From assembly GCA_018260755.1 (NCBI GenBank), contig JAGTWP010000024.1, forward strand, positions 730-7,405: a stretch of DNA of 6,676 bases, in the 5' to 3' direction. The number at the start of each line of letters is the position of its first letter. Position 1 is the first letter of the stretch. Of the stretch, positions 1 to 744 are shown one piece after another. Source of the DNA: Candidatus Altarchaeum sp. (GTDB lineage: Archaea; Altiarchaeota; Altiarchaeia; Altiarchaeales; Altiarchaeaceae). The notes below the pieces were generated by a model. That model was not told the DNA's origin. It ran no database searches and was given only the letters and a program-made list of their open reading frames with translations. The translations under genes were made by a program, and so were the position numbers.

Positions 1-60
1 TCCTTACATTAAAATATATCTCCTTACATTAAAATATATCTCCTTACATTAAAATACATT
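1..60. repeat. 20-bp tandem repeat at the left edge
   Basis: The unit tccttacattaaaatatatc occurs at 1-20 and 21-40 as exact copies. A third copy at 41-60 matches for its first 16 bases and then diverges into more catt/aaaat-type sequence. The array starts at base 1, so its true length to the left is unknown. It lies just upstream of the promoter of the small + strand gene. It may be a real variable-number repeat or an assembly loop at a contig end. Confidence 0.9.
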
Positions 61-64
61 AAAA

Positions 65-72
65 TTTATAAA
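65..72 (+). promoter_or_regulatory. Putative archaeal TATA box for the small gene at 100
   Basis: TTTATAAA begins 35 nt before the ATG at 100. An archaeal TATA box lies about 25-27 nt before the transcription start, so this would give a leader of only a few nucleotides. No Shine-Dalgarno-like purine tract precedes the ATG, consistent with a leaderless or near-leaderless mRNA. The AT-rich background makes chance matches common, but the spacing is the same as for ileS. Confidence 0.4.
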
Positions 73-99
73 ATACATAAAATTTAAGACATATCTAAA

Positions 100-345
100 A
101 TGGTCAGAAGATTGAGTATAAAAAAGGTCTTTAACAACAAGCATGAATCAACTGGAAGAGTGATGAAAATTGAAAAAACACCGGATAATATTTTGCTATA
201 TAAAGAAAATTTCGTATATAAAGTTAAGAAGGAAGGAAACAAATATATAAAGGTTAGAGGCGGAGCGGGAAAAGAAATCACAGAGGAAATGACAAAAACA
301 GAAATGCATAAATTCGGAGTCCGACTGCAGAAATTTTTCCCTTAA
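100..345 (+). CDS. Small basic protein, unknown function (81 aa)
   Basis: I do not recognise this protein. It has about 20 Lys/Arg against 9 Asp/Glu, no membrane segment, no signal peptide and no cysteine, so it should be a soluble, strongly basic protein. The N-terminus starts MVRRLSIKKV, the middle alternates hydrophobic and charged residues in a way that suggests beta strands (around 32-53, ending KYIKVRGG), and residues 59-80 look helical. This composition would suit binding to nucleic acid or a ribosome-like partner, but that is inference only. The ATG at 100 is supported by a TATA-like box 35 nt upstream, and a T-rich terminator follows the TAA. The overlapping antisense frame gives a Leu/Phe/Ser-rich product typical of a shadow. 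It stands alone on its strand, convergent with the membrane protein gene at 745. Confidence 0.7.
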   Translation: MVRRLSIKKVFNNKHESTGRVMKIEKTPDNILLYKENFVYKVKKEGNKYIKVRGGAGKEITEEMTKTEMHKFGVRLQKFFP

Positions 346-416: not shown

Positions 417-500
417 TGGTATTGTAAAAGCATTCATTGTTCTGAAATTTTATCAATAGAGTTGTTGCGAAATAGTTTATATATGCTATTTTATATCATA

Positions 501-525
501 TCAAAAATGTTTGAAACATTTTTGA
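501..525. repeat. Perfect 12-base-arm palindrome (hairpin 1)
   Basis: TCAAAAATGTTT, a single G at 513, then AAACATTTTTGA. Every position pairs. As RNA it would give an 11-bp stem with a UGA loop. Similar arms occur in protein operators and in cruciform-forming DNA, so the structure alone does not tell the function. Confidence 0.9.
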
Positions 526-531
526 GTATTC

Positions 532-552
532 TAAAAACCTGAGAGGTTTTTA
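532..552. repeat. Stem-loop with 8-bp stem (hairpin 2)
   Basis: TAAAAACC at 532-539 and GGTTTTTA at 545-552 pair perfectly around tgaga; T540-A544 can extend the stem to 9 bp with a GAG loop. On the + strand the stem is followed by tacaac rather than a T run, so it is not a classical hairpin terminator in that direction. On the - strand its right half presents TTTTT before the next stretch, which could help end transcripts coming from the membrane protein gene. Confidence 0.75.
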
Positions 553-577
553 CAACAACAATAGATAAACCATCTGA

Positions 578-648
578 AAATTTATTTTTTTATCACCTCG
601 CTTTGCTTAGAGATTTAAAACAAAGTTTTAAATGGTGGTAATAAATTT
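578..648. repeat. Nested stem-loop (hairpin 3)
   Basis: The outer stem pairs 578-585 with 641-648 (aaatttat/ataaattt). After a bulge of T residues at 586-590, 591-597 (tatcacc) pairs with 634-640 (ggtggta). A terminal hairpin pairs 613-621 with 625-633 (atttaaaac/gttttaaat) over an AAA loop. The middle stem holds T593 opposite G638, a U-G wobble if the + strand is the RNA but an A-C mismatch on the - strand, so a functional RNA would more likely be the + strand. Confidence 0.65.
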
Positions 649-744
649 AAAATAACAATAGATTGAAAATTATTTCGCAACATGTCTAATATATAAAATT
701 TTGCATTGTTGTCTAACTTTGTTGTCTAAAATTATTATACTTTA

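Follow-up and report, generated by a model that had tools for sequence, protein, structure and literature searches.

Prokaryotic MITEs, e.g. those of the archaea Sulfolobus and Haloquadratum (PMC10969869), are short, AT-rich, intergenic sequences that have terminal inverted repeats (TIRs) and a target duplication, contain no open reading frame and show a strong potential for hairpin formation in the transcript. The element described here displays the same properties, however it is found in another host and its sequences differ. The Altiarchaeales are not among the archaeal MITE hosts named in PMC10969869, and a literature search for MITEs in Altiarchaeales found no report. The Nezha MITE of cyanobacteria, named in PMC10969869, is comparable by IS ends alone, i.e. 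an IS of its host group (cyanobacterial locus L108) ends in TAGAGTTGTTGCGAAATA, which is very similar to the ends of the element. Bacterial IS5 transposons produce target duplications of the form 5′-ANT-3′ (PMC4482050). IS5 family ISs have the 3-bp ANT duplication in common with the present MITEs, and the transposase-bearing ends in Altiarchaeales match the MITE ends at 16–18 of 18 positions. However these ISs are approximately 1.06 kb in length and carry a transposase, whereas the MITEs are 58–343 bp and carry none. The REP/RAYT system is linked to a Y1 transposase, and its dispersed short intergenic palindromes resemble the inner hairpins of the element.

The window analyzed is a 6,676-nt stretch of contig JAGTWP010000024.1 of Candidatus Altarchaeum sp. 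Among the window's open reading frames, two convergent genes enclose the element: an 81 amino acid open reading frame (positions 100–345, + strand) and a PsiE-family gene (positions 745–1158, − strand). Comparisons of sequence indicate that the element is almost certainly a MITE, most likely mobilised in trans by an IS5-family transposase. Its features are collected in Table 1.

Table 1. Predicted features of the element and its immediate flanks (window coordinates)
Feature	Position	Strand	Basis or remark
Left target duplication copy (AAT)	455–457		Flank reading, target duplication analysis
MITE, 230 bp, without coding capacity	458–687	+	Copy searches, both-ended family members
Left terminal inverted repeat, AGAGTTGTTGCGAAATA	458–474	+	Arm pairing, family alignment
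Internal palindrome 1, TCAAAAATGTTTGAAACATTTTTGA	501–525		Perfect; paired changes among MITE copies
Internal palindrome 2, around AAAAACCT-GAG-AGGTTTTT	529–555		92%; class also found outside MITEs
Degenerate CCTCGCTTNGCTYGGAGATTT hairpin motif	596–617		Motif match; weak alone by folding
Right terminal inverted repeat, AGACATGTTGCGAAATA (read on − strand)	671–687	−	Arm pairing, family alignment
Right target duplication copy (AAT)	688–690		Flank reading, target duplication analysis

A preliminary description had placed an inverted repeat of 12 perfect pairs, extendable to 16 of 18, around a sequence with no open reading frame at 457–688. Comparison of the arms confirms the repeat: the perfect 12-nt arm is TGTTGCGAAATA, the outer 18 nt of the element (with the adjoining T) match at 16 positions, 12 of them consecutive, and the arms at 457–478 and 667–688 are 86% complementary across 22 nt. 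The coordinates were correct to within 1 bp, the element occupying 458–687 once the target duplication, a 3-bp AAT direct repeat on both sides, is considered. The lack of coding capacity also holds, i.e. no open reading frame of at least 60 aa in the window's list overlaps the element. Of 1000 dinucleotide shuffles, 7 contained perfect 12-nt arms separated by more than 100 nt. Thus the outer repeat alone is modest evidence, unusual without being extreme. The window has tandem repeats in addition: 20-bp units (tccttacattaaaatatatc) at its start (positions 1–50) and, upstream of the element, two 18-bp units around TTTTTGTTGTATTTT (positions 369–404).

The element is multicopy. The window's own genome, G000 (1.32 Mb, 85% complete), has eight related copies that span much of the element. 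One is 100% identical (the window copy and G000:C58:4007–4243 form an identical pair over the 237-bp query) and the others display 72%–95% identity. Flanking sequences of these copies are unrelated beyond the element, and multiple copies are also found in three congeners (G001, G002 and G003). Several copies with common ends and differing flanks are what the preliminary description had named as its test for a mobile element. Together with transposase-bearing elements that have the same or very similar ends, this bears out the original MITE reading. When one mismatch is allowed, the end pattern TAGASNTGTTGCNAAWTA is found 72 times in the own genome, 237 times in G001, 39 times in G003, 13 times in G002 and 15 times in another genome, G026; the reversed pattern gave 0–2 matches as a control (2 in the own genome).

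Elements with both ends were read in 65 cases, and their lengths, which include an outer T and an outer A, range from 58 to 343 bp. Size classes lie at 58, 80/81, 91, 105–127, 151 and 158 bp; the window copy falls in a further, long class (186–343 bp). The typical element has one GAGTT-type end and one GACAT-type end. The 58-bp members (L198:523–580, L205, L209 and L210) are identical to one another, are located at different sites of G001 and consist of barely more than the pair of terminal repeats, which is an extreme lower limit of size for a transposable unit. One MITE copy, L064:1375–1716, contains an insert of about 130 bp with the ends GGCATTGTTAA/TTAACAATACC and CGAAATA on both sides; apparently it belongs to a second MITE family, the target duplication of which is 7–8 bp. 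Carriage by viruses was considered and rejected, as IMG/VR contigs do not contain the exact 20–21-nt right ends of two subfamilies.

Identical triplets flank 50 of the 65 elements: AAT in 26, ATT in 22, TTT in one and GAT in one. ANT flanks 59 elements on the left and on the right, and in 48 of these the two middle bases are the same (Fisher p = 7e-7, A/T table). Three insertions have paralogous empty sites, which align base for base and contain a single AAT or ATT. An 81-bp element within a long MITE of G003 (L041 compared with L067) shows ATT. An 81-bp element within a 151-bp element of G000 (L188 compared with L181, L189 and L192) and a 151-bp element within another repeat (L189 compared with L026, L028 and L035) both show AAT.

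This duplication bears on the source of the transposase. A MITE of another family, i.e. IS6 or an IS630-type that duplicates TA, is extremely improbable, although the TGTTGC core is similar to the ends of IS6 and at first sight every copy has TA beside it. The duplication is AWT, neither TA nor 8 bp, and the agreement of the middle bases led to replacement of an IS630-like TA duplication by AWT. In the IS6 family the duplication is 8 bp. An IS240-type transposase (PF13610) has no match in G000 and G001, the genomes richest in MITE ends; G002 and G003 have a single match apiece, which lacks these ends, and IS5 transposases do bear them. An IS6 origin, at which the preliminary description had hinted, is therefore not supported, given the 3-bp duplication and the lack of an IS6-type transposase in the own genome or G001. 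IS6 was rejected, the combination of an IS240-type transposase with these ends and an 8-bp duplication not being found in the genus genomes.

An IS5 origin, which was also mentioned, is supported by the transposase family and the ANT duplication. Contig G001:C53 encodes a 316 amino acid protein with HTH_Tnp_4 (44.5 bits) and DDE_Tnp_4 (84.1 bits) domains, both above cut-off. The nearest NCBIfam model, NF033581 (IS5 family), scores 63.5 bits, which is under its cut-off of 140. An identical protein is encoded on MTER01000053.1 of Candidatus Altiarchaeales archaeon A3. The transposase is located close to the contig end, immediately interior to ...AAGTTATTTCGCAACGGGTCTA; the contig terminates exactly at ...TTATTTCGCAACGGGTCTA. 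The right repeat of the MITE matches this IS5-family element end at 16 of 18 positions. In G026, contig C258 (L089) contains the C-terminal part of a related transposase followed by TATTTCGCAACAACTCTA, which is identical to the left end of the MITE with its preceding T (18 of 18). Transposase genes of the IS5 type with matching termini are thus present within both the genus and the class. A further contig, G002:C222 (L087:1–1225), begins at a AGACTTGTTGCGAATTA end and has a related IS5-type transposase whose open reading frame stops early, with an extra small open reading frame upstream.

In Methanophagales and allied archaea, close relatives of the transposase (55%–59% identity) are part of complete elements about 1.06 kb long, and so are more distant relatives in cyanobacteria. 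These complete ISs have AGACTTGTTGC (Methanophagales) or AGAGTTGTTGC ends on both sides. Among full-length ISs in other groups, five of the ten that are readable lack matching 3-bp flanks, so that the evidence for the target duplication of the autonomous element comes chiefly from the MITEs. No matching transposase was found in the own genome, which is 85% complete, and the genus yielded no complete autonomous copy with both ends, G001:C53 having a clear right end only. The preliminary description had looked to a full-length IS with the same ends. Transposases of G001 and G026 have matching right ends, and both ends together are seen only in the more distant ISs. Judged by the ANT target, the transposase probably belongs to the ISL2 subgroup of IS5.

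An IS5-family DDE transposase most likely recognises the terminal repeats AGAGTTGTTGC... and AGACATGTTGC... in trans and would insert the element at A-W-T sites, with duplication of 3 bp. We infer that this particular transposase acts catalytically on these MITEs, and the MITEs may have moved recently and may be active at present. The family displays a short non-coding sequence, TIRs, location at unrelated sites, target duplications with empty sites, and ends related to those of autonomous elements, which is the pattern of a MITE. A DDE transposase of the IS5 type and the presence of the ANT duplication in the MITEs and in about half of the full-length ISs point to an IS5 source.

The preliminary description had also noted more complementarity than expected and had offered, as an alternative, a multibranched RNA closed by the outer repeat. 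The excess is real. The whole element folds with a z-score of −6.2 (+ strand) and −5.8 (− strand), and none of 200 shuffles folds as well; equal folding of composition-matched shuffles, named beforehand as evidence against the element, was therefore not observed. Without the terminal repeats the interior has a z-score of −2.4, and without the TIRs and both palindromes it is ordinary (−0.8). The excess is thus due to the terminal repeats and the two palindromes at 501–525 and 529–555. At least three stem-loops, two of them with perfect arms, had been described; the first palindrome is indeed perfect, however the second pairs at 92% and the third hairpin, around 590–640, is weaker.

If the outer repeat closed a functional structured RNA (a riboswitch, a ribozyme or an sRNA), a z-score of about −6 would be accounted for, and palindrome 1 does show paired changes among copies: three pairs are changed on both sides among five variants, which are few, and all cells are paired. 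This covariation cannot separate a constraint on DNA from one on RNA. The fold is equally strong on either strand, or nearly so, the interior outside of the two palindromes folds like shuffled sequence, and interior modules are gained and lost among copies while the ends are constant. The copies are scattered and have target duplications. There is no Rfam match inside the element, the only matches being sub-threshold chance ones located outside of it. A structured RNA is thus very improbable, and the RNA alternative is not upheld.

The interior of the MITE has further properties of its own. In the long class, hairpins vary in number and sequence: L046 has four and the window copy has two, whereas L053 and L063 have none at the position. 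Sites of the palindrome class number 19 in G000, six of which are inside MITEs of the family, and 91 in G003 (controls 0 and 2), and they are often located in intergenic arrays outside of MITEs. Dispersed hairpins of the form AAAAAYCT-NNN-AGRTTTTT with varied stems, and CCTCRCTTYGYTCGGAGATTTT hairpins, are present at 91 and 40 sites, respectively, in G003. Linkers, among them AAATACTGAAAA and TTTTCAATCTTTAAAAA, connect the hairpins of the arrays (L220:370–560, L217:380–850, L219:380–620, L222:60–160, L223:400–560 and other loci of G003 and G000). The MITE interior thus has hairpins in common with an independent dispersed repeat, which is the least expected part of the analysis. That the MITEs carry interchangeable hairpin modules with a function of their own, and so distribute regulatory or structural hairpins across the genome, is conceivable but unlikely. 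The inner hairpins were also considered as REP elements of the Y1/RAYT type; this was rejected, the Y1 transposase (PF01797) being absent in the four genus genomes G000–G003 as assembled and present in 5 of 14 controls.

The location of the window copy, between convergent open reading frames at positions 345 and 745, and the resemblance of its palindromes to intergenic hairpins elsewhere in the genus are what would be expected if mobile DNA had been adopted here as a 3′-end or terminator-like element. Comparison with G002 argues against this. At locus L175, window positions 27–345 and 764–1189 align with the same gene order and orientation, and a homologue of the 81 amino acid open reading frame is at the equivalent place. 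The intergenic gap of G002 is much shorter and cannot hold the element; it is too diverged for the junction to be read. The same neighbors thus occur without the element, and the window copy displays no sign of selection that conserves it. Adoption as a terminator-like element is quite improbable.

The MITE is an ordinary though clear kind of genetic parasite, a new family of a well-known element type, which an uncultured archaeal genus contains in dozens to more than 100 copies. Its folding is a warning that RNA need not be the reason when intergenic DNA of these genomes folds strongly. The genus of Altiarchaeales has a dense load of IS5-type MITEs, with up to 237 ends in an assembly of 1.4 Mb that is 65% complete (G001). 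This load, which includes the 58-bp elements, helps to explain the fragmented assemblies, and the MITE copies are markers for mobility at the strain level.
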